Positions 12,168-60,824 are shown, numbered from the stretch's first letter. The stretch is 64,000 nt of DNA from Actinomycetes bacterium (GCA_021845725.1 JAJZVL010000009.1:878-64877); one strand, 5' to 3'. Numbers and translations: made by a program. The notes: a model not told the origin generated them from the sequence alone.

Positions 12168-12205
12168 CGGGTGCACGCGGGGGCGACCGACGCCGAGCAG
12201 GCGGC

Positions 12206-15408: not shown

Positions 15409-15415
15409 GATCGCC

Positions 15416-16858
15416 TCAGCCGGCTTTGCCGGTCGATCTTGTCCCGGCGGCTTCGACGAGGCGGGCCGTGGCGACGGTCACGGCCTCTGCCATCGGGAGA
15501 TGCAAGAACTCGTTCGGCCCGTGGGCGTTGCTCCCGGGGCCGAGCACCCCGGTCGCCACCAGCGGGACGCCGGGGTAGCGCTCCGTGAGCATGGCGAGGA
15601 ACGGGATCGTCCCACCCTCCCCGAAGGAGCCGGGCGGCGTGCCGAACAGCTCCTCGGAGGCGCGGGTGAACGCCTGGTCGACCCAGCCATCCATCGGCGG
15701 CGCCGCCCAGCCGTCCGCAGCGCCGTCGACGCGGACCTCGACGCGTGCCCCAGAGGGCGGTTCCGCGCTCAAGACCGACTCGAGCGCTGCCTTGGCCGAC
15801 GCGGCGTCCACGGTCGGAGGGAGACGGAGGGAGATCTTGGCCGTGGTGCAGGGGCGCAGGACGTTCCCGCCGTCACGGACTGCCGGGATGCCGTCCATGC
15901 CGGTGACCGCGAGCACTGGTGTCCAGGCGCGGCGCACCAGGCGGTCTTCGTCGGACGCGCCCTCGAGCTCGAGTCCCGGGACGATGGGGAAGGCCGCGGT
16001 GGCGTCCCACCCCGGGGGCATCCTCTGCACCGCCGGCCGGTTGCCAGCGTGGAGCGCGGCGAGCCGCACCTCTCCGGTGCGCGGGTCCTCGAGCCGATCG
16101 AGCAGGAGGCGGAGCAGCCGGAAGGATGTCGGGACGATGCCGCCGGCGCTGCCGCTGTGGACCCCTTCGGAGAGCACCTGCACCGAGACGGTGGCCACGA
16201 GGTTGCCGCGCAGGGAAGAGGTGAGCCACAGGCGGTCGTAGCTGAGGCACCCCGAGTCGAGGCATACGACGAGGTCGGGAGCTCCAAGCGTTGCGCTCGC
16301 GGCATCGAGGTGCCCGGGGAGGTCGGGGCTCCCGCTCTCCTCGCTGGCTTCGACGAGCACGACGACACGCGGTCGGGGAATGCTGGCGGCATCGAGGATC
16401 TCCACGGCCGTCACCGCGGCGAACAGCGCGTACCCGTCGTCCGCGGTTCCCCTGCCGTAGAGGCGGTCGTCTTGCCGCACCGGGGTGAACGGCCCCAGGC
16501 CGTCCCGCCACTCGCCGAGAGCGGGCTGCTTGTCCAAGTGCCCGTAGACGAGCACCGTGCCGGTCCGCCCGCCGGTCGCTGGGGCGTCGACGAGCAGGAG
16601 CGGGGTCCTCCCGCTGTCGCCGAGCACCTCTGCGTGCAACCCGTCGACCGCCCTGTCTCTGGACCACTCCTGGAGCAGCGACGCGGCCTCGGCGAGATGG
16701 CCCGCCGCTTCCCAGTCCTCGTCGAAGTCAGGGGACAGGCACGGGATGGCCGTATAGCGCTCGAGCGCCGGAAGGACGTCGTCTTCCCAGCTCCGGTGCG
16801 CCCGACCGCGCAGGTCGCCGCCGACGGGGGGGACCGAGAGGCTTGCGTTCCTTGACAT
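15416..16858 (-). CDS. M20-family metallopeptidase (dipeptidase-like)
   Basis: 480 residues of the M20/M25/M40 family. Metal ligand and catalytic motifs are VLVYGHLDKQP (His and Asp), LYGRGTADDGYAL (bridging Asp), VLVEASEESGSPD (Glu-Glu) and the late His region NAHGPNEF. The dimerisation/lid domain is at about 200-330. The length and D-G-Y variant fit the carnosinase/dipeptidase branch rather than DapE. ATG 16858 is chosen; the frame extends to 16915 with unconserved residues. First gene of an operon with nadC and the GAF-SpoIIE phosphatase. Substrate not determined. Confidence 0.88.
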   Translation of the reverse strand: MSRNASLSVPPVGGDLRGRAHRSWEDDVLPALERYTAIPCLSPDFDEDWEAAGHLAEAASLLQEWSRDRAVDGLHAEVLGDSGRTPLLLVDAPATGGRTGTVLVYGHLDKQPALGEWRDGLGPFTPVRQDDRLYGRGTADDGYALFAAVTAVEILDAASIPRPRVVVLVEASEESGSPDLPGHLDAASATLGAPDLVVCLDSGCLSYDRLWLTSSLRGNLVATVSVQVLSEGVHSGSAGGIVPTSFRLLRLLLDRLEDPRTGEVRLAALHAGNRPAVQRMPPGWDATAAFPIVPGLELEGASDEDRLVRRAWTPVLAVTGMDGIPAVRDGGNVLRPCTTAKISLRLPPTVDAASAKAALESVLSAEPPSGARVEVRVDGAADGWAAPPMDGWVDQAFTRASEELFGTPPGSFGEGGTIPFLAMLTERYPGVPLVATGVLGPGSNAHGPNEFLHLPMAEAVTVATARLVEAAGTRSTGKAG

Positions 16859-32113: not shown

Positions 32114-32190
32114 GGGCGCTTAGCTCAGTTGGTTAGAGCGCAGCCTTCACACGGCTGAGGTCGGAGGTTCGAGTCCTCTAGCGCCCACCA
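32114..32190 (+). tRNA. tRNA-Val(CAC), CCA encoded, integration target
   Basis: A full cloverleaf: acceptor GGGCGCT/AGCGCCC (32114-32120 and 32180-32186), D-stem GCTC/GAGC, anticodon stem CAGCC/GGCTG around loop TTCACAC with anticodon CAC at 32148-32150, T-arm GGAGG-TTCGAGT-CCTCT. Discriminator A is 32187 and CCA follows in the DNA (32188-32190). The anticodon CAC reads GUG (Val). The 3' half is overlapped on the opposite strand by the end of the serine recombinase ORF, and the 3' end starts the 18-bp repeat found again at 39589. Confidence 0.95.
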
Positions 32191-33706
32191 CATCGCCGTA
32201 TTCGAACTTCGGCGAAGAGAAGAGCAGGTCGAAGGGCTCTTTGTAGGCGGCCTCGGCCACGTGTCCGTTGCGCACATGAACCTCGTCAAGCACGGCGGCG
32301 TTGAGGAGTCTCCTCGTCCGGTCGCTGCCGCGCCGGTAGGCGGTGGCGCAGCGCGTCGAGAACCGGAGGGCGAGGTCCATGACCTCCCGCCAGTCGTCGA
32401 GGCTGGCGTCGAGGGTTTCCTGGCGGGAGTCGATGGCCCGTAGCTCGGCGCCGATGCGTTCTTGCTCGCGTCGGAGCATGGTGACATCGATGGCGTTGGC
32501 GTAGTACGCCTCCATCAGTTTGAAGCGCTCGGCCTCGGCATGCTCGCGGCGGTGGGCCAGCAGCTCGCGCTCAGCGGTGTTGTCCTCGTGGTGGGTGGCC
32601 ACCTCGGTGGCGATCGCTTCTCGAAGGCCCTCGGCCCAGTCGTCTGGCACTTCGATGCGCGCGTAGAGGTCCTCGACTTCGGCTTCGAGCTGGTCGGCGG
32701 CGACGTAGCGCTCCTGGCAGCCCGTGCCGTTGCGGCGGTCTTTCTGCCCGAGACAGTAGAAGTACGTGTACGTGCCCTTCGAGTGCTGGATCGAAAGCCG
32801 CCGCCCGCACACCCCGCACACGAGGACGCCCTTCAGGTAGTGATGGTGCCGGCGCTCGCGCGTCCCTCGTATGGCCCGGGCAGCCAGCAACTCCTGGACC
32901 TTGTCGAAGGTGGCACGATCGACGAGCGGCTCGTGGCTGCCCTCGTACTCGACGCCGTCCCAATCGACGACGCCGACGTAGGCCCGATGCCCGAGCAGAC
33001 GGGCGAGACCCGAGACGGTGAGTGCCTTGGCCGGGTAGTGCCCATTCCGGCCCCGGTTGCGAAGCCCGCGATGGGCCATCTCCTGGGCCAGGCGCTCGAC
33101 CGTCCATTCGCCGGTGGCGTACAGCTCGAAGGCCGCCCGGACCAGCGGGGCGCGTTCGGGATCGGGGACGATGTGGGCAACCTGGCGACCGCCGATGGGC
33201 TCGCGGACGTTCAGGTAACCCAGGGGCGCCTTGTGCGGGTAGCCACCGAGCTTGGCCTTCTGGCCCATGCCCTTTCTGACCTCGTTCGCCAGGTTGGCCG
33301 AGTAGAACTCGGCCATGAGGGCGTGGATGCCCTCGACCAACCTTCCCGAGGCGGTCTCGTCGAGGTTCTCGGTCACCGACACGAGCGCAACGCCGCGCCG
33401 GCGCAAGAGTGCCCGAATGGCGACATGATCCTCCATGTTCCGTGCCAGCCGGTCGATCTTGTGGACGACGACCGCCTCGACGTCGCTCTCCTCGCCGATC
33501 CGCGTCAGCATCGCTCGCAGTTGCGGCCGGTCGGCCGTCCGCGCCGACTCGCCCTTGCCGACGTACTCGTCGAGGAGCTCCCAGCCCTCGTCGCGGATGC
33601 GCCGGACGCACGCTTCGCGTTGGGCGGCGATGGAGAAGCCGTCCTCGGTGAGGTCCTTCTCGGCCTGTTCCTTGGTCGAGACCCGCAGGTAGATCACACA
33701 GCGCAC
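32147..33706 (-). CDS. Large serine recombinase / integrase
   Basis: 519 residues. Resolvase domain at about 1-150 with catalytic Ser10 in YLRVSTKEQAEKD and KIDRLARN; recombinase domain at about 165-290; zinc ribbon with GVLVCGVCGRRLS and a later Cys; C-terminal coiled coil (about 365-445). This is the architecture of large serine integrases. The last ~12 codons (GARGLEPPTSAV) are the antisense of the tRNA-Val gene, and the TGA stop (32149-32147) overlaps the tRNA anticodon loop. The native C-terminus is therefore replaced or extended by host tRNA sequence at the junction. It presumably inserted the element to its right. Confidence 0.92.
   Translation of the reverse strand: MRCVIYLRVSTKEQAEKDLTEDGFSIAAQREACVRRIRDEGWELLDEYVGKGESARTADRPQLRAMLTRIGEESDVEAVVVHKIDRLARNMEDHVAIRALLRRRGVALVSVTENLDETASGRLVEGIHALMAEFYSANLANEVRKGMGQKAKLGGYPHKAPLGYLNVREPIGGRQVAHIVPDPERAPLVRAAFELYATGEWTVERLAQEMAHRGLRNRGRNGHYPAKALTVSGLARLLGHRAYVGVVDWDGVEYEGSHEPLVDRATFDKVQELLAARAIRGTRERRHHHYLKGVLVCGVCGRRLSIQHSKGTYTYFYCLGQKDRRNGTGCQERYVAADQLEAEVEDLYARIEVPDDWAEGLREAIATEVATHHEDNTAERELLAHRREHAEAERFKLMEAYYANAIDVTMLRREQERIGAELRAIDSRQETLDASLDDWREVMDLALRFSTRCATAYRRGSDRTRRLLNAAVLDEVHVRNGHVAEAAYKEPFDLLFSSPKFEYGDVVGARGLEPPTSAV
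32183..32200 (+). repeat. Left junction repeat (putative attL core)
   Basis: gcccaccacatcgccgta includes the last bases and CCA of tRNA-Val. Identical at 39589-39606. The following bases, ttcgaa (32201-32206), extend a second match (18 of 20 from 32187) to 42727-42746. Confidence 0.7.
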
Positions 33707-34178
33707 CGGCCACCTCCTCTGCTAATCGGTCCATGAGACCTCTTTCCGCCCGGAAGGGCAAGGCCCTCGGCCCTCACCTCCAGGGCGAGGATGACGATCG
33801 CCCGCGCGTAGGGCCCGAATGCTTCGAGTGGGGGGACCAGACGTGTGGTCCCGCCATCCGCGAGGTCGTGGTGGGACCTCGATGCGGGGAGTCCCGCGAC
33901 CGGGACCTGCCTCCTGCGTTGTGGTTGTGCACCTCGCGGATGATGATGGACTTCCGAGCCCGGTTCTCCCGCCTGCTGGACCTCGGCCCGAGTCCGCTTG
34001 CGAGCATCTCGCGGGTGGTGGGGTGGGTTCCCCGCGTGTGGGGGACCGCCGACCCGGCCGCCACCCGGACCTCGCGGATGGCGGGGGACCACCGCGGCGC
34101 CCGACCCGGCGCCCTCGTGCTCGACCGTGCCCCGGCGCCCCCGGCGCCGTGGCTGGGTTTCCCGCCCTGATGCCCCGC
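33707..34178. repeat. 472-bp intergenic region with inverted copies of ATCCGCGAGGT
   Basis: No convincing gene. The 11-mer ATCCGCGAGGT or its complement occurs at about 33857 (+), 33936 (-) and 34069 (-), each in a G/C-rich context with short flanking inverted repeats such as GGTCCC/GGGACC around the first copy. The outer copies share a longer match (cccgccatccgcgaggtc, inverted). A further copy pair lies at 35954-35984. Spacing and both orientations suggest protein-binding sites or structured single-stranded DNA/RNA of the mobile element. Confidence 0.5.
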
Positions 34179-35843
34179 TCATCGGCGGTCCCAGAGACGG
34201 GTTCGGCGGGAAGCGATCCGTTCGAGCGATTCGGCCAGAGTCGGCGGGAGCACCGGCGCGTCGACCAGGCGAACGAGCGCCCCGCTGCAGCACCGGCAGG
34301 CGAGCACGTGGTAGCTGCGGCCGGGCGGTTCCTCGTCGTTGCGGGGCACGGCGCAGGTTGGGCAGACAAGCAGGTGCTCAGCGTCGTGGGCGGCCTCGAG
34401 CTCCGCCCGTTCGGTTCGCAGGCGTCGGTGGAGCGGGAGGTCCCGGAGCGCCCGGGCCACGGCCGCCGAGCGCCGCCGCTCGTGCTCGGCCATCGCCTCG
34501 TCCACGACAGCCCGGCCGTCGATCGGCGATCCCGGCTGGAGGTCCCGATCATCGACGAGCGCGCCGGCGGCCAGCGCGGCAGCCGGCCGGCACAGCCGCG
34601 GGTCGGCGGAGCGGACCGCCTCGTTGCCCGAGAGCAGCACGTCGGCCTGGGCGCTCCAGCACTGCCGGTAGAGGGCACGCCAGGCGCTGACGACCGCCGA
34701 CGGTGCCGGCGTGCCGGCCCAGGTCCTCGCCTCCGCCCACCAGGTGGCGGTCTGCTCCACGAGGGCAAGGTGCTCCAAGCCCCACTGCTCCCTGGGGTTG
34801 AGCACGCTGAGCGGCCCGGCGAAGAGGTAGCGGATCACCGCCGCCGCCTCCTCGTCGCCGATGGCGTCGGCCAGCGCGTGGGCGTTGCGGTGGAGGTTGT
34901 GGACCAGCTGGCGCCGCCGGTGCTCGTCGTGGCGGCGCTGGGCCACCTCGACGCGTGCCACCACTTGGCGGTACTGGCGCACGTCGGGCGAGATCAGCTG
35001 GGACAGCGTGCTCGGTGCGTCGCCCACGGCTTGGCGCCACACGGGCGCAACGACGGCGTCCTCGGGCGAAGTCACGGCCGCACACGCCGCCACCAGCTCG
35101 TCGTAGTGGGCGGGGTTGTCACTCGGGTAGATCGAGGGCCGGGGCCGGTCCTTCTCGACGCCGGCCAAGAACCGGTTCACCCGCGCCTCCGAGGTCGTCA
35201 CCAGCAGCAGCGCCGGACAGCACGGATGGCGGTCCCACCAGATCGTGTCGGTGCAGTAGCTGCGGTGCCGGGCGACCTTGGCCCGCAGGCGCGCCTGGTC
35301 CATGGTGGCGAAGTCCACCTCCACGAACGCCCCGGCCGCGCCGTCTTGGCCGTCGACGTCGAGGTGGACCTCGGCGTAGGCGTCGGGGCGGATGCGCCCG
35401 GTGCCCCGATAGCCCGACCAGTCCTCCCAGGCATCCTCGTCTCGGCGCCACTCGCTGAGCGTGAGACCGACGCTCGGGCCGATATCGCACAGGGCGACGT
35501 AGAGGCCGGCGATTGCCGCGGTGTGGCGGAGGAACAGCGGGTTCGGCGTGCCCTTCCCCGGAGCGGGCGAGGTGCCCTCGACCAGGCGCGCGCCGGCCCG
35601 GGTCAGCCACCAGTAGAACGGCGCCGAGCCCGACGCCGCGTACGGGCGGGTCCGATCGACGAGCGAGCGATCCCGCAACCGGGTGAGGCGATAGTCGATG
35701 GTCCGCTCCGGACGCTCGGTCAGCATGATGAGCTGTGGCGTGGTGAGCACCCGGTGGAGCTGGAGCAGTCCGAGGATGTCGTGGTCGATGGCGCAGAGTC
35801 GATCGATCCTCGTCCTCGTCGCTACGCTGCGGCCCCCGTTCAT
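34179..35843 (-). CDS. Replication-relaxation family protein of mobile element
   Basis: 554 residues. The N-terminal ~230 residues match the replication-relaxation family found on actinobacterial plasmids and integrative elements: winged-helix start (IDHDILGLLQLHRVLTTPQLIMLT, RTIDYRLTRLRDRSLVDR) followed by a nuclease-like beta region with RIRPDAYAEVHLDVDG and FVEVDFATMDQARLRAKVARH, which may carry the D...E.D residues of a restriction-endonuclease-like core. The C-terminal part is helical and ends in a zinc-ribbon-like CPTCAVPRNDE with ACRCCSGAL. Exact role unproven; supports the element being plasmid- or ICE-derived. Confidence 0.78.
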   Translation of the reverse strand: MNGGRSVATRTRIDRLCAIDHDILGLLQLHRVLTTPQLIMLTERPERTIDYRLTRLRDRSLVDRTRPYAASGSAPFYWWLTRAGARLVEGTSPAPGKGTPNPLFLRHTAAIAGLYVALCDIGPSVGLTLSEWRRDEDAWEDWSGYRGTGRIRPDAYAEVHLDVDGQDGAAGAFVEVDFATMDQARLRAKVARHRSYCTDTIWWDRHPCCPALLLVTTSEARVNRFLAGVEKDRPRPSIYPSDNPAHYDELVAACAAVTSPEDAVVAPVWRQAVGDAPSTLSQLISPDVRQYRQVVARVEVAQRRHDEHRRRQLVHNLHRNAHALADAIGDEEAAAVIRYLFAGPLSVLNPREQWGLEHLALVEQTATWWAEARTWAGTPAPSAVVSAWRALYRQCWSAQADVLLSGNEAVRSADPRLCRPAAALAAGALVDDRDLQPGSPIDGRAVVDEAMAEHERRRSAAVARALRDLPLHRRLRTERAELEAAHDAEHLLVCPTCAVPRNDEEPPGRSYHVLACRCCSGALVRLVDAPVLPPTLAESLERIASRRTRLWDRR

Positions 35844-36489
35844 CGCCGCCCGCCGAGTAGGCGGTGAAGCTTGACTGCCAACCTTCCCCTACAGTCGGGG
35901 TCTCGGCCAACCGCCCGACTGCTGGCCTGAGCGGCGTCTTTGCGCCCGCGAGGCTCGCGGATCGGAGGTAGGGCGATCCGCGAGGTCCCCCGCTTCCGAC
36001 TGGTCCGGGACCTCCCCGGGCAGGGCACTCGCTCCCGACCATCGGGTCCACCACGGCGGTGGGCTCGACAGTGCCGGGCGGCAGTGTGCTGGTGGCATCG
36101 GGGAGCGTGGCAACGGTGTCGCATGGACCTCCTCGGACGACGACCTCCATAGAAGAACAGGGGGGAATGCGCCGAAAACCAACGAAATCGCTGAAACAGT
36201 CGCCTGACCAGCAGCTCCGCACGTGGGGACTGGAGCGGGCTGAGGTGGCCGCCGTTCGGCGGCGCGGGCGCGGCAGGGCGCGGGCGGTCGACCGGTGTCA
36301 TCGGGGAGTTCAGGTTCGTCATGGGCTGGCCCACGACCGGACAAGCGCGCCAGGGAGCGGAGATGAGACCTCGATCCGCCCGCGATGTCAAGGGGTTTCG
36401 CAAAAAATCTTCCCCTTGCCCTTGAAGCGCACCCGTGGAGGGTGTAGATTTCGTTACATATCGGTGCGTTGTTCTGCAGGGTACCGACG
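35844..36489. other. Noncoding leader region of the element with an 11-bp hairpin
   Basis: About 650 bp between the replication-relaxation gene and the riboswitch, without a supported gene. ctcgcggatcg at 35954-35964 pairs with cgatccgcgag at 35974-35984 (9-nt loop), containing the same ATCCGCGAG word repeated near the integrase. The promoter for the riboswitch transcript must lie toward the right end; TTTCGCAAAAAATC near 36398 is the only AT-rich spot. Confidence 0.45.
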
Positions 36490-36556
36490 AAAAGGCAAAC
36501 CCTCCGCGACGAGGGGACGCAAAGTCACGGGGCTCCCTGAGCCAGCCGGACTGCCC
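36490..36556 (+). ncRNA. Cyclic di-GMP-I (GEMM-I) riboswitch
   Basis: The conserved GEMM-I core is present in order: GGCAAACC at 36494-36501, the P1b hairpin CCCTC/GAGGG, GGGACGCAAAG at 36514-36524, a second hairpin GGCTC-CCT-GAGCC (36531-36543), and the closing AGCCGGACTGCC (36544-36555), whose TGCC pairs with the initial GGCA. This matches the c-di-GMP-binding aptamer (Rfam RF01051 family). It precedes the short ORF and the lysozyme-like gene on the same strand, so these are probably switched by c-di-GMP. Expression platform not evident. Confidence 0.88.
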
Positions 36557-36636
36557 ATTTGGATGGCTCATGCTGTCCTCCTTCCGCAGTTCTTCGCAGT
36601 GCGTCATCGAGTCCCAACGAGAGGGGATGACGACGC

Positions 36637-36747
36637 ATGGAAGGGCGCACCGGCAACGACGACCATTGGTCGCCGCTCGACTCCGTGAAGGAGTGCGCAT
36701 CGCGCGTCGGCGAAGCCAGCGACGCATTCCGATCCGACGGGAGGTGA
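36637..36747 (+). CDS. Possible 36-codon ORF ahead of lysozyme-like gene
   Basis: ATG 36637 follows GAGAGGGGATGA. The frame encodes a short, charged, potentially helical peptide with one Cys and stops at TGA 36745, only 6 nt before the next ATG in the same frame; its last codons contain the ribosome binding site of the next gene. It may be a small protein or a translational coupler between riboswitch and enzyme. Confidence 0.4.
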   Translation: MEGRTGNDDHWSPLDSVKECASRVGEASDAFRSDGR

Positions 36748-36753
36748 GCTGCA

Positions 36754-37332
36754 ATGGCCTGCAGCGCGACGGACTCTGAGGCACGCTCGGAGATAGGAAC
36801 GGCATATTCAGCATGGCCGGCGATCACGACTGCCGAAATCGTGTACGCATTGCCACCGTGGTACTTGTACTGTATCGGCGTCCAAGAGACCAATCTTAGC
36901 GGTTATGGACCCGTCGATAGCCCGAGCAGTTCGAATGGCTGGGGGCTGTTCCAGCAGACCAGTACGGTATCAGTTCAGCTGCCAGGGGTGCTCCATCCGC
37001 TACCGAATGAGCCGTGCAAGACAATCGGGCAGAGTTGCGGGACATCTTCCAGTAACGCAGCCAAAACTCACTACACGTATCGGCCGCTTCTCTGCGCAAT
37101 GGTCGCCGCGCGACAGCTCAAGACATACTACAACGAGGCCGTTGCCAACGGGTTGTCGGGGAACAACGCCTGGGAATGGGCAGCCTGCAGGTACAACGGA
37201 AGCGAGAGTGGCTACACACCCAGCTGCGAGTACGGCTCGTGCGTCATGGGTTACTTGAGCTACGTCCAGACCAACGGAGTGCCATTCAACGGTTCGACGT
37301 TGTCTGGCACGGAGTACCCCTCCCAACGATGA
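36754..37332 (+). CDS. Lysozyme/transglycosylase-like protein under c-di-GMP riboswitch
   Basis: 192 residues. CIGVQETNLSGYG gives a putative catalytic Glu (QETN), SSSNGWGLFQQ matches the GLMQ-type substrate loop of SLT/goose-lysozyme folds, and WAACRYNGSESGY resembles the AAYNAG block of lytic transglycosylases. Several Cys residues suggest disulfides, but no classical signal peptide is visible, so export would need another route. GGGAGGTGA lies just upstream of the ATG. Base composition is clearly less GC-rich than the flanking genes, as expected for recently acquired DNA. Probably cleaves peptidoglycan; homology is motif-level only. Confidence 0.6.
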   Translation: MACSATDSEARSEIGTAYSAWPAITTAEIVYALPPWYLYCIGVQETNLSGYGPVDSPSSSNGWGLFQQTSTVSVQLPGVLHPLPNEPCKTIGQSCGTSSSNAAKTHYTYRPLLCAMVAARQLKTYYNEAVANGLSGNNAWEWAACRYNGSESGYTPSCEYGSCVMGYLSYVQTNGVPFNGSTLSGTEYPSQR

Positions 37333-37390
37333 CTCCACACAGACACTCCAACGTCAGTTTTTATGGTCTCTACTACAAGGAGGTTTGACC

Positions 37391-37657
37391 ATGGCACCGC
37401 AAACCGGCACGGTTACGATCTCAACGGACGATCACGGCAATGGCTGGACCGAACTTACCATTGGTGCCCAGCCAACGTTTGCTATTCAGGCAGAAGTCGC
37501 GAATCCGGTAACAGCTGGAGGCTACCCTGTAATCCCCAAGATCGCCACGAGCGGGAAGGGCAAGGGCACGGCGACAACACCACGTAAGGAAGTCTTGGTT
37601 GTCACGGAGGGTCCGGCGACATCATCGGTCACGGTTCAATACGTGTACACATTGTGA
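37391..37657 (+). CDS. 88-residue beta-rich protein of unknown function
   Basis: Starts at ATG 37391 after a perfect AAGGAGG ribosome binding site (7-nt spacing). The sequence is rich in Thr, Val and Gly with alternating polarity (GTVTISTDDHGNGWTELTIG at the start, VTVQYVYTL at the end), fitting a small beta-sandwich. No signal peptide or catalytic motif. It follows the lysozyme-like gene by 58 nt and has the same lower GC content, so they likely share the riboswitch transcript. Not recognised. Confidence 0.6.
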   Translation: MAPQTGTVTISTDDHGNGWTELTIGAQPTFAIQAEVANPVTAGGYPVIPKIATSGKGKGTATTPRKEVLVVTEGPATSSVTVQYVYTL

Positions 37658-37741
37658 CTTCTACGCCAACACTTGCGCTGCGCACGACAAACAAGGACCA
37701 AAGGCAGTAATGGAAACCCCCCACCGTCGCGTGGTTCTCGA

Positions 37742-39484
37742 TCAGAGCCCCACTTCGGAGGGAGTGACCGCACGTGAGCAGATCACGACGTCGGCACCTG
37801 CGAGGTGCAGCACGCGGCTAGGGATGCTGAGGCGGTGGAGGTCGTCGATGAAGGTGGTTTCCGGCAGACCGGAAGGACCTTCGATGATCACTGTCGGTGC
37901 GTACTCAGTCCGCGCCGTGAGCGTCGGGGGCACGAAGATCCACGCCTGATGGCGCGCCCGCGTGGCTCGCAGAGTGGCACGGACTGACGGCAGGCGATCC
38001 GGGCTCGGCGGCGTGTCGGCGATGGAGAGCCCCCCGTCGCTCAAGAAGTCGAGCTTGTACGCCACCCAGTAGTCCGCATAACCGGCCGTGATGCCGTTCT
38101 GCTCGAGCGCGTGCACCAGCTCCTGTGCCGGCGCGTCTGGAGATCCCGCACGTAGGTGCGCCCCGGCGGGATCGTTGATGGAGCCCCAGACTCCGAACGC
38201 CACGACGCTCAGTGCGAGCACCATCCCGAGCGCGCTTGCGATGGCAAGCGATGCGCTCCAGCCGAGGTGCCGCCGTCGGAAACGGCGCGCAGGGCTGACG
38301 AGCTTGTCCGTCGTCACCACAAGGAGCAGGAGGACGAGCGGGACGAAGAAGTTTGTGTACCGGGCCGACTGCCAGTCGGCGCCGGCGGGCGCAACCGCAA
38401 GGATGAAGGGATAGGCCAAGACCGCGCAGCCGAGCGCCGCCCCCTTTGTCCGGTCGAGGAGACACCAGACGGCCGATCCCACGATGACGATCCCTGCCAA
38501 GAGCGTCAGGGCGATCGCGAGCGAAGCCGGAAGGTCGAACGCCCCAGATCTCGGAACGCGAAGGTCGAGGGTCATCGGGAACGAGTAGTGCACGAACGTG
38601 CTGACACGTGTGAGGTACGGCAGCGGATGGGCAGGCGCGTCGTACCGCGACACGGCGAGCGAGGGGAAGCCGACACCTACGTTGTCCCAGAGCCACGGCA
38701 TGGCACCGACCCCTGCCCCGATCATGGCAACTCCGATGTGCCGATAGGTCGTCGAAGCTCGCCGTGTGTGCCAAGCCCAGCTGAGGAGCCAAAGGACCGC
38801 GGGTACTGCGAAGTAGGCGATCTCGGGAGACGACCACCAGCCGACTCCTGCGACCAGCCCAAGCATTGGCGCGTCGACGCGGGAGGCATCTCCCTGGGTG
38901 ATGCGCAGGGCGAGGAGGAGCATTGCGACGCCACAGACGAGCGTCACCCCTCGGAAGCCGTACTCGAGGGTCGAGTTCCACACTGCTGACTGCGGGGCCG
39001 CCCACATTGCCGCCGCGGCTACCAGCGCGATCGCGGGTCTCGCGACGAGGCGTCGCCCCACTCTCCACACGAGCACGCAGGCGACGGCGTCGAGCACGAC
39101 GACCGGGACCTGGAGCGTGATCGGCGACGAGCCGAAGGCGCCGAACAGGGCTGCCACAACATAGGGTTCGACTCCGCCGTAGGGCTGCCCGAGAAGGAAG
39201 GCGTTGGCGTGCCCGGCGAGGAGGTGGCGTGCGAGGATGCCCACGAGGGCCTCATCCGAATTGATCGGGTCGTGTCGCAGATACCAGACGCGCTCGAAGA
39301 TCCCGATCCCCAGGGCAGCCCCGACGGTCAGCACCAGCGGGAGCTGGCGAGCGAGGTCCCAGCGGCGGATGTCACGTCGATCGCCGCTCGACGTCGCCTG
39401 GTTCTGGCCGAACGTCCTCGTATCCGGTGCAGCCTGCCCGACACTCACGTCCCTCTCGGCTCCTTGCTCTGCGGCGCCGTTCAC
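37742..39484 (-). CDS. GT-C fold membrane glycosyltransferase-like protein
   Basis: 580 residues with about 10-12 membrane helices. After the first helix comes the acidic loop RHDPINSDEALVGILARHLLAGH, the D-E type catalytic loop of GT-C enzymes (PMT/ArnT/mycobacterial Emb-like family 39 and 87 relatives), followed by PYGGVEPYVVAALF. A soluble C-terminal domain of about 130 residues follows. Such enzymes use polyprenyl-phosphate sugars on the outer membrane face. Located inside the tRNA-borne island beside the right 18-bp repeat. Substrate unknown. Confidence 0.75.
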   Translation of the reverse strand: MNGAAEQGAERDVSVGQAAPDTRTFGQNQATSSGDRRDIRRWDLARQLPLVLTVGAALGIGIFERVWYLRHDPINSDEALVGILARHLLAGHANAFLLGQPYGGVEPYVVAALFGAFGSSPITLQVPVVVLDAVACVLVWRVGRRLVARPAIALVAAAAMWAAPQSAVWNSTLEYGFRGVTLVCGVAMLLLALRITQGDASRVDAPMLGLVAGVGWWSSPEIAYFAVPAVLWLLSWAWHTRRASTTYRHIGVAMIGAGVGAMPWLWDNVGVGFPSLAVSRYDAPAHPLPYLTRVSTFVHYSFPMTLDLRVPRSGAFDLPASLAIALTLLAGIVIVGSAVWCLLDRTKGAALGCAVLAYPFILAVAPAGADWQSARYTNFFVPLVLLLLVVTTDKLVSPARRFRRRHLGWSASLAIASALGMVLALSVVAFGVWGSINDPAGAHLRAGSPDAPAQELVHALEQNGITAGYADYWVAYKLDFLSDGGLSIADTPPSPDRLPSVRATLRATRARHQAWIFVPPTLTARTEYAPTVIIEGPSGLPETTFIDDLHRLSIPSRVLHLAGADVVICSRAVTPSEVGL

Positions 39485-39588
39485 TCTACGGGTTCTCCCT
39501 GGCGACGGGAGTCACCGATCACGATCTCGGAGGTGAGCAGCTGGACGCGTTTCCGCATGTCACCGAGGTTCGGATACGAGTGCCTACG

Positions 39589-39606
39589 GCCCACCACATC
39601 GCCGTA
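39589..39606 (+). repeat. Right copy of 18-bp junction repeat (putative attR)
   Basis: gcccaccacatcgccgta identical to 32183-32200. The preceding bases (gaggttcggatacgagtgcctacg) still resemble the T-arm and 3' end of the tRNA with an insertion and changes, as expected for a displaced tRNA fragment. The 303-bp gap here (39485-39787) holds no gene. Confidence 0.65.
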
Positions 39607-41124: not shown

Positions 41125-42174
41125 ATGCGGAGCTTCGCCGAGGTTGATTCCTTGATCGGCACAGTGCCAGCGGGTGTTGTCACGCGCCTGAGTGTCGTTG
41201 ATGCCGGGCGCGGCTCCGAGGCACTCTATGCCGACCAGCTCCCCGGGCTGCTGAAAGAGCTGGCCGACGCGGCGAGGGTCGAATCGGTGATCACCTCTTC
41301 GGCCATCGAGGGGATCGTGGTCGAACAGGCCCGGGCGGAACGGATCGTCCGAGGTGCTGACCAACGACTCCGCGTCCGCAACGAGAAGGAGCTGGCTGGC
41401 TACCGTGACGCTCTCGACTACCTGTTCCACGACCGACCGGGTGATCTCTCCGTCGGTCTCGTCCTCCATCTCCACCGACTCCTCTTTGGTCGGACGGGTG
41501 GTGGAGGAGGTCAGTTCAAGACCGTCGACAACCTCGTCGTGGACCGCCACCCCGACGGGACGTCGAGCGTTCGGTTCGTCCCGACGTCGCACCAGGACAC
41601 GCCGTTCTTCATGTCCGAGCTCGTCGATCGGTATCGCGCTGAACAAGGCTCCGGGCGTCACCACCGTGCGCTGCTCGTGGGACTGTTCGCACTCGACTTC
41701 CTCACGATTCACCCTTTTGTCGACGGCAACGGGCGGCTCTCTCGCCTGCTCGGCACGCGCCTGCTGTCCGAGGTCGGCTACGGCGTCGGGCGTTACGTCT
41801 CCCTCGAGGGGCTCATCTACGAACGACGCGACGCCTACTACGACGCCCTGGCGGCATCGACCGTCGGCTGGCAAGACGGTATCCACGACCCCTGGCCATG
41901 GCTCAGCTTCTTCGTCGAGGTGATCGCCCATGCGTATGAGACCTTCGCGGCTCGTGCCGCTGATCATCGTTCGGGCGTCACTAAGCAGGACCGGGTCCGG
42001 AACTACGTGCTCAACCACGCCGGAACGTCTTTCGAGATGGCGGACGTGAGACGAGCCGTGCCTGGAGTGAGCGATCAGACTGTCCGCCTCGTGCTGCGGG
42101 AGTTAAAGAACGAGGGGCTCGTACGTCCTAGCGGTGTCGGCCGGGGAACGAGGTGGGTGCACGTTGGCCAGTAG
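41125..42174 (+). CDS. Fic-family protein (class II-type autoinhibited)
   Basis: 349 residues. The Fic catalytic motif is IHPFVDGNGRLSR (HPFxDGNGRxxR). The inhibitory helix motif SSAIEG near residue 58 matches (S/T)xxxE(G/N), placed N-terminally as in class II Fic proteins, where its Glu blocks ATP binding. The C-terminal ~75 residues form a winged helix (FEMADVRRAVPGVSDQTVRLVLRELKNEGLV). It should transfer AMP from ATP to Tyr, Ser or Thr of a target, or remove it. The upstream 70 bp includes an AT-rich stretch (AACTGCTAATCTGAACCGTAATTAGCAT) suitable as promoter. Target unknown. Confidence 0.9.
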   Translation: MRSFAEVDSLIGTVPAGVVTRLSVVDAGRGSEALYADQLPGLLKELADAARVESVITSSAIEGIVVEQARAERIVRGADQRLRVRNEKELAGYRDALDYLFHDRPGDLSVGLVLHLHRLLFGRTGGGGGQFKTVDNLVVDRHPDGTSSVRFVPTSHQDTPFFMSELVDRYRAEQGSGRHHRALLVGLFALDFLTIHPFVDGNGRLSRLLGTRLLSEVGYGVGRYVSLEGLIYERRDAYYDALAASTVGWQDGIHDPWPWLSFFVEVIAHAYETFAARAADHRSGVTKQDRVRNYVLNHAGTSFEMADVRRAVPGVSDQTVRLVLRELKNEGLVRPSGVGRGTRWVHVGQ

Positions 42175-54330: not shown

Positions 54331-57300
54331 CTACGGCGCCCTGTGGGGCCGCTGGCGGGCTCCGGCGACGATGACGGGCACCACGCACTCTTCGAGCGAC
54401 GTTCCGCCGTGCACGTACCGGCCCTCTGGCCCGCGACCCCACGAGAGGTTCTCGCGGAACCCGTGGTCGGCGAGGACCACGAAGGGAACGTCGTCGGGGA
54501 GCGCTGCGAGGGAGGGGAGCACGCGGCGCTCCAGACCTGACACGGCGTCGGCCAGGAGCGCTGCAAGCTCGGCCGAGGTGCGATGCAGTCGTTCGTCGAC
54601 GGCGGTCGCCACCGCGATGGAGAGCGGGGGACCGCCGCTCCACAGCTCTCGCAGCGCGCTTGCGTGGTAGTCGCGGTCTGCCCCCGAGAGCACGGCCGTC
54701 TCGTACCCGAGGTGCGCGAACGGCGCGCACGCGTTGGGCTGTCCGGCGATGTCCGAGGGAGATGAGGGCCCCGTCCCCCGCACCGACCCCGTCCCCCGCG
54801 CCGACCCCGTCCCCCGCGCCGACCCTGCCGAGCCTGCCGGGGCGGGCACCCCCGACGCCATGGCGGCAAGTGCCTCGGCGGTCCGGGTCGGCGCAGGCAC
54901 GACCGCCCAGTGGCGGGTGATCACCCGGCCCGGCAGCACCCCTGCCAGGCGCGCGGCCAGCTCTGCACCGAGGTCGGCTCGCAGCGCGTCGACGAGGAGG
55001 ACCGCGACGCGCCCGTGCGTGCGCAGCAGCGGCTCGACCACGCGGCGGCCGACGTCCCACACCATGAGGCATCCCGGGAAGCCGCTTGCCGCGTAGCGGT
55101 CGAACGCCTCGTTCGCCTGGGCGAGGAGCCGCGCGGCGCCGTCTCGCACCTGCGCGACGGCGGCAGGGTCGGCGAGCGACCCCGACGATGCGGCGAGCTC
55201 GGCTCTGCTCACCAGCCAGGGAACGCACACGGCGTGCGACGCGTACACGTCCTCGACGAGCTCGGCGGCGGATGCGGTCGGGAGCCGCCGCTCCACCTCT
55301 GCCAAGTGCTCCGCCGCCTCGAGCACGTAGGACAGGGCAGCGAGCTCTGTTGCGTCGACGAGCGCGTGTGCAGCGGCGACGGCTCCTACGTCGAGGCAGC
55401 CGAGACGCGTCACGAGCTGCCAGTCGCCGGCTATACGGCGCACCAGCGCGTCGGTAGCGAGCCGGAGCGGGTAGCGGAGCAGTGCCTCGGAACGCAGGAG
55501 GTCGAGTGCGTCTCGAGCGCTGGAATGCTCGAGGTCCAGCGCGGTGGCGATCTGGTTACCGAGGACGGTGCCTTCGCTCGCGCGCCGATCGAGCTCGGCG
55601 AGCTCGGCGAGCGCGCCAGGATCGCCCAGCGCGGCGCGTGCGGCTTCTCGGACGCGCACGGGGTCGGCCAGGAGGGCGGCGGGCAACCACGGTGGCGGCG
55701 CGGGCCGGCCCGCCCACCACGCCGCCAGCCACAACGTGTCGGCGCCTTGCGCCGCGGGGAGGAGCGCTGCGACCGAAGGCCACCGTTCGGCCACGAGCGC
55801 GACGGTGCTCGACGGGTCGCTCCGCGTGCTCCTACCCACAGCGTCCCCGAATCCTGGTTCTCGGGCCCCGAACGCGGCGGTCTCGTCGGCCTTGTGCGCG
55901 GTGGGCCCGGGGGTGTGCCCAAGCCCTCCGAAGAGCGCCTCGGCGCTGTCGCGCACCTCGACGAACCCGCTGGGCGGGACGTCGCCAGCAGGGTCCACCC
56001 ATGCTTCGAGCAGTTCGAGAAGCCGGCGTTTCGGGTAGCGCCGGCCGATCAGGTCTTCGCGCAGCGCCGCCAGGTCACGGGTGACGACGAGCTGGCTCCC
56101 GGCGAGCACGTCGCGGATCGTTCGCTGGAGCTCGTGTTCGAGCAGGCCGGCGATGGTGCCGAGCGCGGCGTCGTCTCCTGGTGCATTGCCTGGCGCGCCG
56201 TCGCCTGGCGCGCGGTCGCCTGGCGGCGTGCCTTCTGCCCAGCGCGCGGCCAGGGAGAGGAGCTGGCGCAGGTCGGCGGCGAGCTCGGCGCGCCCGATGG
56301 ACTCGAGGTCGGTGGCCGCGGCCTCCAGCCGGTCCCGGCGCTCGGCGGCCGAGAGCTCGGCGAGGTGCTCCGCCACGCCACGCTCGGCGAGAGCCACGAG
56401 GCCCGCCTGGTCGACGACCGGTGCGGGTTCCCCCAGGCGCAACCCGCACGAGCACACGGGGCGCCACAGCAGCTCCTGGTCGAGGCGACGAGTGCAAGGC
56501 GTCGGCACCGCAACAGCCAGCGCCCGGTCGATCTTCACCCGGTCGTCGGGGACCGCCACGGCTCCGATCGACGAGAGCGCGCTGAGTGCACGGTAGGCGG
56601 GAGTGGAGCGGACTGCCTGGACGTGCGCGGGTCCTGCTGCGGCGTAGTGGCGCTCGTGGGCCTCCTGGTACACGGCGAGGTACGCGCTGCGCAGCTCGCG
56701 CACCGCGCTGAACAGCTCGGCGGTCCTGTCCTCGGCGGCGAGGCGGAGCACGTCGCCGAGCAGCTCGCGCGCGCTGGCGTGCAGGGTGAGCAGCGCCGTG
56801 TGGTCGTCTGGGAGCTGCAGGTCGGGATGGGTCAGGTACGCCGCGGCCTCGTTCACGCGACGCAGGTCATCTCGGAAGAAGCGAGCCAGCCGGGTGATCC
56901 GGCGCGAGGCAGCGAGCAGGGACTCGGGGGTGTCGACGGCGGCGACGAGCGCGCGCAGCCCGGCCGCCGCGGACGGCACCCCGCTGGTTGCCTCCACGAC
57001 ATCACGGATCTCGGCTGCATCTGCGAGCACGGGCGCCATGTCGGCCTCTCCGAGGGCAGGGATCTCCGCGACGGCACGCAGCCCTTCGGCGACCTGGGCC
57101 AGCTCTTCCCGGCGCGCCTCCAGCCATGCCTGCGCGTATTGCCACGCGACCCGCTGGGTCGCCGCGGTCCACGGGTCGAGCGGTCCCGGTCCGATGACCG
57201 GTCCCAGCTGGGCGGCCATGTCGCGCACCGCCTGCTCGACGAGCTCGCCCGCAGCGAGACGGTCGCTCGGGGTGACCGCGAGGAAGGGGTCAACGAGCCG

Positions 57301-59775
57301 CTTGCGTCCCCGGAGCACCTCGACGAGGCCGGTTGCCGCACAGGCGTTGAGAACGAGCACCGACTCAGGTGCGCTGAGCCCCAGAGGGCCGGCGGCCAGC
57401 TCGGAGACCGCGTCTGCTGCGAGGACCATCTCTCCGTCGCCGACGATCCGGAGCAGCTCGGCGACAGCAGGGCTGCGCACCGGGTCGGGCGCGATCGTCG
57501 CCCCGTCGCGGCGCGAGCGGGCGAGCCCGAGTGGCACCAGGTACCCGTCGACGAGCGGCCGCAGCTGGCTCATGGCTGCGGGCGGAACCCGTCCGAGCGG
57601 GATGACCTCGTGCACCAGGCGCTGGAGCAGCCGCTCGCCGACGAGCTCGCCGCGCGGGGCGACCTCGGCGTGCAACGGGTGCAGGCGCGACAGCAGCGGG
57701 TCGGCGAGCCGCGGCAGCTGCCGTTCGAAGGCGAGGCCGGCGAGGGAGGGCAGGTCGAGGTCGGGCGACCCCAGGAGGTCGCCGTCCCGAGGCGGCGGGT
57801 AGACGAGAGACCCGTCGAAGTAGAGGCGCCGGAGCAGCTCGCGCGCGATGGCGGCGTCTGCCTCGCATGCCTGCTCGCCGGCGGTGACGAGATCGGCGAG
57901 CCCCGCTCGGCGAGCCTCTTCGAGCACCTGACGGCGGGCGTGGAGATCGAGCAGGGTGTCGTGCTCGGCGTCGGTCGGACAGGCGGGGACCCACACGGCG
58001 ATCCGGCGCGTGCTGGCGGCAGCCGCCTCGGCTGCGCCTGCCGCTTCGGCCGCGTCGACTGCGCTGAGCTCTGGCTCGGCCACGACGAGGCAGCCCTCGG
58101 CACCCGCGGCAACCGCGTGGGTCGCCATCGTCTCGGCGTCGCCGGCCGAGAGCTCGGTGAGCCGGGCCGTCTCGACGACCAGCGACCGCAAGGTGTTCTG
58201 CCAGAGCAGCTCTCGCCGGGAGGGCCCGAGCTGGCCGAGGGTGTCGAGCGGGAGCGTCGGGGTCGAGCCGAGGTCCGCGAGGGTCGCGACGAGCCGTCGG
58301 TCCGAGCGGTGCACCTCTGCTCGCGCCTCAGCGACGCGTGCGGCGAACACCAGTCCGGCGTCGGCTCCTGCGTCGGCTTCGTACGTACGCGGCGGACCAG
58401 GATGGGTGACGACGTAGGCGCCTCGCTCGACGGTCGCCCGCAGGACGGCCGTCTCGAGGTAGGCGGCGTTCAGGGAGGGGTCCACGTCGCTGACCCGGGC
58501 TTGGAGCATGTCTGCCAGCTCGGCAGCGCTGCGAGGCCGCTCGAGGGGCGACGCGGCGAGGAGCACGAGGAGCTTCACCGTCCGCAATGCGAGCTCGCGG
58601 TCATCGGGCTCGAACAGCTCGTCGAGCGAGCGCTCGTAGTAGGGGACGACCGTGCCTGCGAGGCGCGCCGTCTCCTGGCGCTCGTGGAGACGGGATGTGA
58701 AGTGGTCGTAGACGAGGTCGGGCGTGACCAGCTCGAGGCACGATCTGTCGAGTGCTGCGCGGACGCTCCGGCACACGAAGTCCACGACGCCGCGTTGCTG
58801 GGAGAGCAGGAAGCGGAGCCCCTCGAGCAGCCGCAGGGTCTCGGGGTGCAACGGGTAGCAGCGGGCGAAGGTCTCGTAGCCCACCGGGCTCGAGGGGAAG
58901 GCGGTGCACAGGGCTTCGTGCGCTGCGCGGACCCACTGCTCGGCACCCGGCCGGAGCCGGATGAGGCGCCCGTGCACGAGATCTTCGACGTGGCGCATGG
59001 AGAGCGTGAGGCTCGGCCGGTAGCGGTCGCGGATGCGGCCGAGCTCGCGCTGGCTGATGTTCGCCACCTCCTCGATGCTCTCCTGGAGCGCACCGACGAC
59101 CGTCACGGGGTGCTGGCGGGTCCACTCGCCGATGAACTGGAGGAAGCGGAGGTCCTCGGTCAGCTCCGGACCCTGCTTCGCGCGGAGGAACTCACTCAGC
59201 TCGTCGATCAGGAGGACCAGCCCGGCGTGGCCCGCGCGACGCGCGGCGTCGAAGAGGTCTTCCCACGCGGCCGCACGGTCGTCGGCCGGTGCTGGCGGTG
59301 CCATGCCGAGAGCGCGCCAGGCGCGTTCGGCCACGACGTCCTCGAGACGCGCCTGGGCTCGGTACTCGACGAGCGGCACTGCGACTGCGAGCGAGGGCGC
59401 GACCGACGCGGCGCGTCGCCGGAGATCCTCGTCCCAGCCCGCAAGCCCGGAGGCCATGGCCCTGTGCGGATCGGCGAGGAGCTCGGCCAGTGCGGCGAGG
59501 AAGTGCGACTTGCCCGACCCGAAAGGGCCAACGACGAAGAACCCCGCGCCGGCCGCCGCTCGATCACCGGCCGCGTCACCGGCCGCGTCGAGCACTGCAG
59601 CCAAGCTGCCTGCGACGTCGCCGGTGAGGACCAGCTCGGCCAGGCGGCCAGGTCTGCCGTCGAGCCGCACGACGGTCTCCGTGTCGGCGACCTCGATGAC
59701 GCCGTCGAGGACGGGCACTCCCGTGGGAACGGCCGCGCCTGGCGTCTTCAGTCCAGCCGCCCGCCCAGCGGTCAT
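54331..59775 (-). CDS. PglY/BrxC-like ATPase fused to PglZ phosphatase domain
   Basis: 1,814 residues. N-terminus: large P-loop ATPase of the BrxC/PglY (DUF6079-like) kind, with Walker A VVGPFGSGKSHFLAAL (83-90), Walker B LVLLIDELSEFL (187-197), VVGALQESIEEVA as sensor region, then a long helical region and a CxC element (RPVCSCGLRLGEP). C-terminus (about 1560-1814): PglZ alkaline-phosphatase-like domain, with LLVDALRADLGAEL, APTRTAEALAAM, FVVLADHGF and RYVHGGTSLEECVVPVIV, which supply the metal ligands and catalytic Thr. Gly/Arg- and Pro/Gly-rich linkers occur, encoded by 15-18-bp tandem repeats. In BREX/Pgl these are separate subunits. ATG 59775 lies 10 nt after the TPR gene stop. No pglX, pglW or brxA is present. 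A defence role is inferred. Confidence 0.85.
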   Translation of the reverse strand: MTAGRAAGLKTPGAAVPTGVPVLDGVIEVADTETVVRLDGRPGRLAELVLTGDVAGSLAAVLDAAGDAAGDRAAAGAGFFVVGPFGSGKSHFLAALAELLADPHRAMASGLAGWDEDLRRRAASVAPSLAVAVPLVEYRAQARLEDVVAERAWRALGMAPPAPADDRAAAWEDLFDAARRAGHAGLVLLIDELSEFLRAKQGPELTEDLRFLQFIGEWTRQHPVTVVGALQESIEEVANISQRELGRIRDRYRPSLTLSMRHVEDLVHGRLIRLRPGAEQWVRAAHEALCTAFPSSPVGYETFARCYPLHPETLRLLEGLRFLLSQQRGVVDFVCRSVRAALDRSCLELVTPDLVYDHFTSRLHERQETARLAGTVVPYYERSLDELFEPDDRELALRTVKLLVLLAASPLERPRSAAELADMLQARVSDVDPSLNAAYLETAVLRATVERGAYVVTHPGPPRTYEADAGADAGLVFAARVAEARAEVHRSDRRLVATLADLGSTPTLPLDTLGQLGPSRRELLWQNTLRSLVVETARLTELSAGDAETMATHAVAAGAEGCLVVAEPELSAVDAAEAAGAAEAAAASTRRIAVWVPACPTDAEHDTLLDLHARRQVLEEARRAGLADLVTAGEQACEADAAIARELLRRLYFDGSLVYPPPRDGDLLGSPDLDLPSLAGLAFERQLPRLADPLLSRLHPLHAEVAPRGELVGERLLQRLVHEVIPLGRVPPAAMSQLRPLVDGYLVPLGLARSRRDGATIAPDPVRSPAVAELLRIVGDGEMVLAADAVSELAAGPLGLSAPESVLVLNACAATGLVEVLRGRKRLVDPFLAVTPSDRLAAGELVEQAVRDMAAQLGPVIGPGPLDPWTAATQRVAWQYAQAWLEARREELAQVAEGLRAVAEIPALGEADMAPVLADAAEIRDVVEATSGVPSAAAGLRALVAAVDTPESLLAASRRITRLARFFRDDLRRVNEAAAYLTHPDLQLPDDHTALLTLHASARELLGDVLRLAAEDRTAELFSAVRELRSAYLAVYQEAHERHYAAAGPAHVQAVRSTPAYRALSALSSIGAVAVPDDRVKIDRALAVAVPTPCTRRLDQELLWRPVCSCGLRLGEPAPVVDQAGLVALAERGVAEHLAELSAAERRDRLEAAATDLESIGRAELAADLRQLLSLAARWAEGTPPGDRAPGDGAPGNAPGDDAALGTIAGLLEHELQRTIRDVLAGSQLVVTRDLAALREDLIGRRYPKRRLLELLEAWVDPAGDVPPSGFVEVRDSAEALFGGLGHTPGPTAHKADETAAFGAREPGFGDAVGRSTRSDPSSTVALVAERWPSVAALLPAAQGADTLWLAAWWAGRPAPPPWLPAALLADPVRVREAARAALGDPGALAELAELDRRASEGTVLGNQIATALDLEHSSARDALDLLRSEALLRYPLRLATDALVRRIAGDWQLVTRLGCLDVGAVAAAHALVDATELAALSYVLEAAEHLAEVERRLPTASAAELVEDVYASHAVCVPWLVSRAELAASSGSLADPAAVAQVRDGAARLLAQANEAFDRYAASGFPGCLMVWDVGRRVVEPLLRTHGRVAVLLVDALRADLGAELAARLAGVLPGRVITRHWAVVPAPTRTAEALAAMASGVPAPAGSAGSARGTGSARGTGSVRGTGPSSPSDIAGQPNACAPFAHLGYETAVLSGADRDYHASALRELWSGGPPLSIAVATAVDERLHRTSAELAALLADAVSGLERRVLPSLAALPDDVPFVVLADHGFRENLSWGRGPEGRYVHGGTSLEECVVPVIVAGARQRPHRAP
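54773..54826 (-). repeat. 18-bp tandem repeat in PglZ-domain linker
   Basis: Three units of gtcccccgcgccgacccc (54773-54790, 54791-54808, 54809-54826; one or two changes) encode the GSxRGT repeats inside the PglZ domain. A similar 15-bp repeat at about 56190-56230 encodes PGDRAPGDGAPG in the ATPase part. Confidence 0.8.
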
Positions 59776-59785
59776 CGATGCCGCC

Positions 59786-60817
59786 TCACGGCGTGCCGGG
59801 CGTCGAGCCGGCGTCGGCGACGGGAGGAGCGCCGGCGTCACCAGCGGCATCGGGGGCGGGCACCGGTAGCTTGCGCAGCTCCGCGTAGACGGCGCCGCGG
59901 CGGCTCCCCGCATGAGGCAGGAGTCCTTCGAGCGTCCGGCGCAGCTCCTCGAGCGCCCCCCGGCGGTGCTGGAGGTGCACGTAGGTCTTGAAGAGGACGA
60001 GGTCGTGGGGGTCCTCGAGCAGGCACGACCCGAGCACCGCTGCCGCCTCGTCCAGCCTGCCGGCCCGACGGAGCGCGAAGCCCTGCATCTTGCGTGCGTA
60101 CCGGTCGCCGGTGCGCCCGGCCCGCTCCTGCCATGCGGCGGCCGCAGCGTCTTCGTCGCCCGCCTCCGAGCGCAGCCGCGCGAGCACCGCGGTGAGGTGC
60201 GGGTTGGCGGCTCCAGCGCTCTTGTGGAGCACCGCCGCTTCCTTCGCCCGCCGCTCGGGAGGCAGCCGGAGCAGGCGAACCTCGCAGAGCTTGGCGTACG
60301 CCCACTGGTCTTCCCCCGAGCGCTCGAGGGCGCGGGCGTACATGGTCTCCGCGACGTCCAGTCGCCCTTCGCGCCGCTCGATGTCCCCGAGGAGCGTCCA
60401 GGCTGCCGTGGCGGCGTCGTCGCGCTCGATCGCCTGCGCTGCAGCGCCCCGGGCGCCGGTGACGTCGCCGAGCCGGAGGCGCGCCCGCCCGAGCTGGACC
60501 AGGGTCCACGTCCCGCGGTCGCCGAGCGCGTCGGCATCCTGGTAGCTGCGCGCCGCATCGCGGAAGCGGCCCTCGCGGTAGGCGAGGTCGCCTCGGAGCC
60601 GCGCAGTGAAGGCGGTCGTCCCCGCCTCTGCTTCTGCGCGGTCGAGCGCCGCGGCGGCCTCCTCGAAGCGTCCCCGCCGCAGCTGGACGTCTGCCAGCTG
60701 AGCCAACGCGGCCGGGTGCGGGTGCGCGCCGAGGATCCCCTCGAGCGCGATGACCGCGGCATCGAGGTCGCCGGCTCGCTTCAGCTGGAGCACGTGACCG
60801 AGATCCGGCGCTGGCAC
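59786..60817 (-). CDS. TPR-repeat protein, partner of PglY-PglZ fusion
   Basis: About 343 residues made almost wholly of tetratricopeptide-like helix pairs (ALAQLADVQLRRGRFEEAAAALDRAEAEAG, LRGDLAYREGRFRDAARSYQDA, WTLLGDIERREGRLDVAETMYARALE, GFALRRAGRLDEAAAVLGSCL, VHLQHRRGALEELRRTLEGLL), with a Pro/Ala/Asp-rich tail. No signal peptide. It is 10 nt upstream of the fusion gene and surely co-transcribed, suggesting a scaffold or regulatory subunit. GTG 60817 (or 60823) has no ribosome binding site; a TACACT -10-like box ends just before it, so a leaderless transcript is likely. Confidence 0.78.
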   Translation of the reverse strand: MPAPDLGHVLQLKRAGDLDAAVIALEGILGAHPHPAALAQLADVQLRRGRFEEAAAALDRAEAEAGTTAFTARLRGDLAYREGRFRDAARSYQDADALGDRGTWTLVQLGRARLRLGDVTGARGAAAQAIERDDAATAAWTLLGDIERREGRLDVAETMYARALERSGEDQWAYAKLCEVRLLRLPPERRAKEAAVLHKSAGAANPHLTAVLARLRSEAGDEDAAAAAWQERAGRTGDRYARKMQGFALRRAGRLDEAAAVLGSCLLEDPHDLVLFKTYVHLQHRRGALEELRRTLEGLLPHAGSRRGAVYAELRKLPVPAPDAAGDAGAPPVADAGSTPGTP

Positions 60818-60824
60818 GCACACG

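Follow-up and report, generated by a model that had tools for sequence, protein, structure and literature searches.

A BrxC-type ATPase and a PglZ catalytic module joined in a single chain, encoded directly behind a TPR protein, look like a new, pared-down relative of BREX that occurs in two distant bacterial groups without the BREX DNA-marking enzyme beside it. The pair was found in a stretch of 64,000 nucleotides from an Actinomycetes bacterium (GCA_021845725.1, JAJZVL010000009.1:878-64877), which is referred to here as the window and in which positions are counted from the first letter. A first-pass annotation made from the sequence alone had proposed a compact, methylation-independent PglZ defence system at this position.

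The fusion gene occupies 54331..59775 on the minus strand and encodes 1,814 residues from an ATG codon to a stop at 54331. The TPR gene (59786..60817, minus strand, 343 aa) starts with GTG at 60817, an in-frame GTG at 60823 being an alternative start, and its product matches TPR models with E values down to 1.2e-16. The TGA of the TPR gene is followed by 10 nt and then by the ATG of the fusion gene; the TPR gene is the upstream member and both are probably carried on one transcript. Gene structure and TPR models agree with the order of the two genes given in the first-pass annotation, and the motifs that it had listed for the 1,814-residue frame (GPFGSGKS, LLIDELSEF, LLVDALRADL, ADHGF and VHGGTSLEE) were all located. 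The longest mechanically called frame (2,143 aa from 60762) was rejected, as its additional N-terminus is a wrong-frame reading of the TPR gene. Antisense to the fusion gene, a 1,693-aa frame stays open (54910..59991, plus strand), probably as a high-GC shadow ORF. A fusion by chance or by assembly error was ruled out because independent assemblies from two phyla carry the same architecture.

The N-terminal half of the fusion was compared with BrxC by profile, alignment and fold. A BrxC/PglY-type ATPase is present: the DUF6079 profile matched at 3.6e-29, and the PADLOC profiles for BrxC/PglY, SspC and PglZ matched at 5.7e-23, 4.9e-11 and 8.7e-10, respectively. The NCBIfam models gave 1.3e-12 for BrxC and 5.6e-8 for PglZ_1_B, both far under the NCBI naming cut-offs. 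Judged by these profiles, the fusion is no standard BREX protein but a distant relative. The AAA+ (ORC/Cdc6-like, BrxC-type) ATPase domain covers residues ~20-360 (58696..59718, minus strand; DUF6079 match 67-359), with Walker A (GPFGSGKS) at residues 83-90 and D191 and E192 in the Walker B motif LLIDELSEF. The rest of the BrxC body (56446..58695, minus strand), delimited by hhalign against BREX-3 BrxC, continues to a cysteine hook, C1094...C1108-x-C1110, the cysteines of which are invariant among the aligned fusions and have a counterpart in BREX-3 BrxC (C1090...C1104-x2-C1107); the names given to the domains of this body (wHTH, alpha/beta, wHTH, helical tail) were assigned by analogy with BrxC. 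Residues 27-1106 of the fusion were aligned by hhalign to positions 3-1110 of a BREX-3-type BrxC alignment over 1,008 columns (E 1.3e-26). When residues 1-1120 were modelled with AlphaFold2 (mean pLDDT 82), the top two structural matches were BrxC, with Z scores of 23.7 (9zll_D, model residues 21-468) and 23.5, and archaeal ORC2 was the next family (Z 14.2). Alignment and model thus indicate that the N-terminal part amounts to a nearly complete BrxC and to more than a P-loop.

The tail past the hook and a low-complexity linker (residues ~1111-1312; 55840..56445, minus strand), delimited by model pLDDT and alignments, are highly variable and short in Gammaproteobacteria; pLDDT is mostly below 50 for residues 72-207 of the model calculated for 1112-1814. 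The PglZ module follows at residues ~1312-1811 (54343..55839, minus strand), as delimited by structural matches and ligand conservation, and consists of a helical linker (~1313-1580) and an alkaline-phosphatase-superfamily core (~1581-1805). For residues 1112-1814, the AlphaFold2 model (mean pLDDT 76) matched PorX best (Z 24.0), followed by BREX PglZ (9zn5_B, Z 17.6 over 434 residues; 9nv3_C, Z 14.3), the next family being the nucleotide pyrophosphatases (Z 12.5). The metal-ligand and nucleophile positions expected for the PglZ family (D1596, T1630/T1632, D1727, H1731, D1770, H1771 and H1789) are conserved in the alignment in every complete member from both phyla, apart from one gammaproteobacterial member that has Ser at 1630 and retains T1632. 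The fold and the ligands of an alkaline-phosphatase core are therefore both in place.

The description of this region in the first-pass annotation as a complete PglZ-like C-terminus holds for the catalytic core and fails for the domains that flank it in BREX PglZ. In the model the alpha/beta N-terminal domain, through which BREX PglZ docks to BrxB, is absent from the fusion, because no beta-strand precedes model residue 479 (fusion residue ~1590) and the alignment to 9zn5_B starts only at chain residue 176. At the other end, the fusion stops at the point where the Ig-like C-terminal domain of BREX PglZ would start. In BREX, it is residues 1-98 of PglZ that bind BrxB (PMC13326643). Metal-dependent nuclease/phosphodiesterase activity was demonstrated for the PglZ of E. 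fergusonii, and BREX PglZ cuts DNA and has a part in the defence against phage (PMC12205998); the PglZ part of the fusion would be a metal-dependent nuclease or phosphodiesterase.

Relatives were sought with seeds in 84,980 species genomes. Twelve loci were recovered, nine of them in MAGs of Actinomycetota and three in MAGs of Gammaproteobacteria; distant relatives are under-represented in this count, since the seeds came from one protein. The actinobacterial fusions share 52-72% identity in the best long segment. The gammaproteobacterial fusions are ~1,432-1,440 aa long where complete and are ~21-26% identical across the whole alignment; conservation is among the highest in the ATPase (33-38%) and in the PglZ core (21-30%). 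Whole-genome samples contained the fusion in two of 198 genomes of the window's class and in four of 274 Gammaproteobacteria. A search of 396 genomes of the phylum at 1e-20 returned only the window's own fusion besides BrxC-sized matches, and 398 Pseudomonadota genomes contained no fusion besides that of G335. BrxC matches at ~1e-25 to 1e-31 in further genomes lie in frames of roughly BrxC length and cover the ATPase part only, and these were not counted. A tree of the ATPase had very long branches and singled out no BREX type as the source, and no phylogenetic origin is claimed. An NCBIfam scan of large proteins in BREX-like loci named few PglZ partners, and an alignment of three PglZ proteins was of too low quality for use.

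The TPR protein was the sole constant partner found across the loci. A homologous TPR gene lies directly upstream at every well-preserved actinobacterial fusion locus (51-77% protein identity where intact), and at the gammaproteobacterial loci L010, L011, L012, L057 and L058 a divergently oriented TPR gene adjoins the fusion; in G551 the TPR gene is ~26 kb from the fusion on one contig. The actinobacterial and gammaproteobacterial TPR profiles aligned with an hhalign E value of 1.2e-8, a type of score that TPR repeats inflate. The two groups nevertheless look homologous at the sequence level: a common LPPE...E...L segment and a C-terminal segment are found in both, and the alignment covers most of their length. 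The TPR profile hit four of the 274 Gammaproteobacteria, which are exactly the fusion genomes, and in the class sample it hit the two fusion genomes among 198 at E <1e-160 together with one generic match at 5e-9; the agreement holds even for the genome in which the two genes are ~26 kb apart. The odds of such agreement between TPR and fusion sets by random matching are ~4e-9 and ~5e-5, both values being too small owing to the relatedness of the genomes. The pair of fused architecture and TPR partner is thus conserved across phyla. The TPR repeats themselves point to no specific function.

Purifying selection acts on the fusion: dN/dS by NG86 lies at 0.24-0.37 over the whole frame, with ~0.19-0.22 for the PglZ core. 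Of the 13 genomes in the genus, three hold intact fusions, and the genes on either side differ in each. In the sister genome G255 (locus L013, 9300-11450) the pair sits at the window's own CopA/MFS site, where the flanking proteins are 94% identical, and has been disrupted by several deletions and frame changes. We argue that this decay is real because the deletions and frame changes are several and separate, although MAG assembly error could contribute in part. Small fragments of the fusion gene (L034 3528-3785 and L033 7142-7386) persist in G259 and G205, neither of which has an intact copy; one corresponds to the Walker B region (85% DNA identity) and the other to the C-terminal end. An empty-site comparison within the genus showed that the CopA-CsoR pair is common and that the fusion and the adjoining MFS gene are absent at those CopA copies; no clean empty site was recovered from this comparison. 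Presence is patchy, the flanks differ and a decayed copy exists, and the module is therefore accessory and has been gained or lost repeatedly. The decayed copy and the fragments could also suggest that the module is a BREX remnant in decay and has no function in its own right. Intact frames of ~1,430-1,870 aa in two phyla, the retained catalytic residues, the dN/dS values and the constant TPR partner stand against such a remnant, which was already unlikely from the selection and conservation results and is considered highly improbable.

In the window the pair is neighboured by a copper ATPase gene (CopA) with CsoR and by an MFS transporter gene. The neighbours of the relatives are mostly metabolic and include radical-SAM, PLP, luciferase-like, aldehyde dehydrogenase, subtilase and glucodextranase genes and similar, together with others that we take from their translations to be Pst/phoU genes. 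PADLOC gave nothing consistent on these neighbourhoods. Defence-island enrichment was absent from the actinobacterial loci and not clear in the gammaproteobacterial loci of this small sample. With the fusion as query, searches of viral contigs, plasmids and phages gave no relative; with the gammaproteobacterial fusion as query, the plasmid matches were BREX-3 or Ssp-type ATPases, apart from a single weak one. Proximity to defence islands was not borne out, as no classical island was seen at any locus, and the mostly metabolic neighbours and the lack of relatives in viral contigs, phages and plasmids also count against the defence role first suggested for the pair. Some defence genes sit outside islands. 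The context speaks, weakly, against a classical system carried on an island. A single housekeeping context conserved in all relatives was likewise not found, the contexts differing even within the genus.

Several further genes were recorded around the loci. The gammaproteobacterial locus L011 is alone among the loci in having genes for a type III restriction-like protein (10574-13264) and HipA (14941-16182), at ~4 and ~8 kb downstream of its fusion, and proteins of 1,174 and 881 aa without a Pfam or PADLOC match adjoin the fusion loci at L008 15397-18921 and L036 10440-13082. In the window, the end of a tRNA-Val gene and a few bases beyond it form an 18-bp exact direct repeat (32183-32200 and 39589-39606), and a Replic_Relax (relaxase-like) gene lies between the two copies at 34179-35843; the region 32114-39606 is probably an integrated mobile element. 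Carriage of the fusion locus on this element was rejected, as the repeats enclose 32.2-39.6 kb only. A gene for a Fic-domain protein (41125-42174, plus strand; SoFic-type PADLOC match 6.2e-32) is situated just past the repeat at 39.6 kb and ~12 kb from the fusion.

Metabolic surroundings raise the possibility, which we hold to be real but on the doubtful side, that the fusion is a non-defence chromosomal ATP-gated phosphodiesterase resembling PorX and controls, with its TPR partner, a second messenger, chromosome maintenance or a stress response. The loci show no association with mobile elements or defence islands, some local synteny is retained inside sub-lineages, and PorX is the nearest solved structure to the PglZ half; that PglZ-type domains also serve non-defence signalling, as in PorX, counts against a defence reading. 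Such a role accords poorly with the very patchy distribution (two of 198 in the class, four of 274 Gammaproteobacteria), with the dispensability of the pair within a genus where one copy has decayed and the flanking genes differ, and with an N-terminal half that is near-full-length BrxC, which is not known outside BREX-like systems.

Among the neighbours examined, in the window as at the related loci, no BREX methyltransferase (PglX), phosphorothioation gene, BrxB or BrxL was found, and profile searches of these neighbours gave no match of BrxB/BrxF or BrxA type. The absence of a methyltransferase from the locus, as first annotated, was thus upheld at this range. BREX components act jointly and both BrxC and PglZ parts are present, and the absence of PglX and BrxL is established for locus neighbours only; the fusion could accordingly cooperate with a methyltransferase and further Brx proteins whose genes lie in another part of the genome. 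This dispersed arrangement is regarded as improbable: no locus has a BREX methyltransferase, BrxB or BrxL among its examined neighbours, the TPR protein is the only constant partner found, and the BrxB-docking domain of PglZ is missing.

The arrangement that we favour is a two-gene BREX-related module in which a TPR scaffold or sensor serves a chain of near-full-length BrxC and the PglZ catalytic module, and the prospects that it works as set out below are evenly balanced. In BREX, BrxC, BrxB and PglZ form one core complex in which BrxB joins BrxC and PglZ (PMC13326643). Because of this joining role of BrxB (PMC13326643), and because the fusion is without the BrxB-binding domain of PglZ, it is reasonable to suppose that ATPase and nuclease act in cis, as the first-pass annotation had suggested; the absence of the docking domain fits a direct coupling of both enzymes. 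By its likeness to BrxC, the N-terminal part would bind ATP and DNA and self-associate, and the PglZ part, a putative metal-dependent nuclease/phosphodiesterase, would be kept near DNA in cis. The TPR protein would stand in for BrxB and for any sensor, holding the effector idle until a signal derived from an invader arrives. Self and non-self would not be distinguished by a BREX-type mark made by the locus; since no methyltransferase lies alongside, control would have to come from the trigger. The outcome would be local DNA damage or abortive infection, and the role an anti-phage one. The fuller proposal, that of a self-contained, methylation-independent two-gene immune system with BrxC and PglZ in one chain and a TPR invader sensor replacing BrxB, spread thinly over at least two phyla, is put forward tentatively, as its chances seem to us somewhat short of even.

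We know of no settled account of how BREX stops phage. That BrxC and PglZ occur naturally as one chain, with neither a methyltransferase nor BrxB as a neighbour, points to ATPase and PglZ as a working unit that cannot be reduced further, and a two-gene system could allow the restriction step to be examined separately from methylation. Two possibilities become testable: a PglZ effector that separates self from non-self with no mark on the DNA to rely on, or a BREX core with a role outside immunity.

Neither a BrxC-PglZ fusion nor the TPR partner was found in the literature searched (open-licence papers). BREX-Related Capture (BRC) and Type-3 BR systems were described in a survey by Rakesh and Krishnan (2026; PMC12839542); searching its text turned up neither a BrxC-PglZ fusion nor a TPR partner, and an unlabelled listing in its supplement is possible. 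According to the survey (PMC12839542), these systems employ PglZ outside canonical BREX, and BRC has a DUF6079 ATPase as the fusion does; unlike the fusion, they consist of separate proteins with several more components (HerA/FtsK, STAND and DUF4007 in BRC). SspC of the Ssp phosphorothioate system has a related N-terminal ATPase, but it is not fused to PglZ and Ssp acts with SspB/SspD. PorX, a response regulator with a PglZ-domain phosphodiesterase, resembles the C-terminal half, whereas it has a receiver domain, a role in type IX secretion and no BrxC-type ATPase. BREX PglZ (PDB entries 9zn5 and 9nv3; PMC12205998) and the fusion both contain the helical linker and the catalytic core with its metal-binding motifs, but the N-terminal alpha/beta and C-terminal Ig-like domains of BREX PglZ have no counterpart in the fusion. 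BrxC/PglY (DUF6079), compared here for type 3 BREX, aligns over nearly its full length and has the cysteine hook and the ATPase fold in common with the fusion. In BREX, BrxC is separate from PglZ and in type 3 ends at ~1,240 aa, whereas the fusion, with no methyltransferase, BrxB/BrxF or BrxL alongside, continues to 1,814 aa and joins PglZ at its C-terminus.
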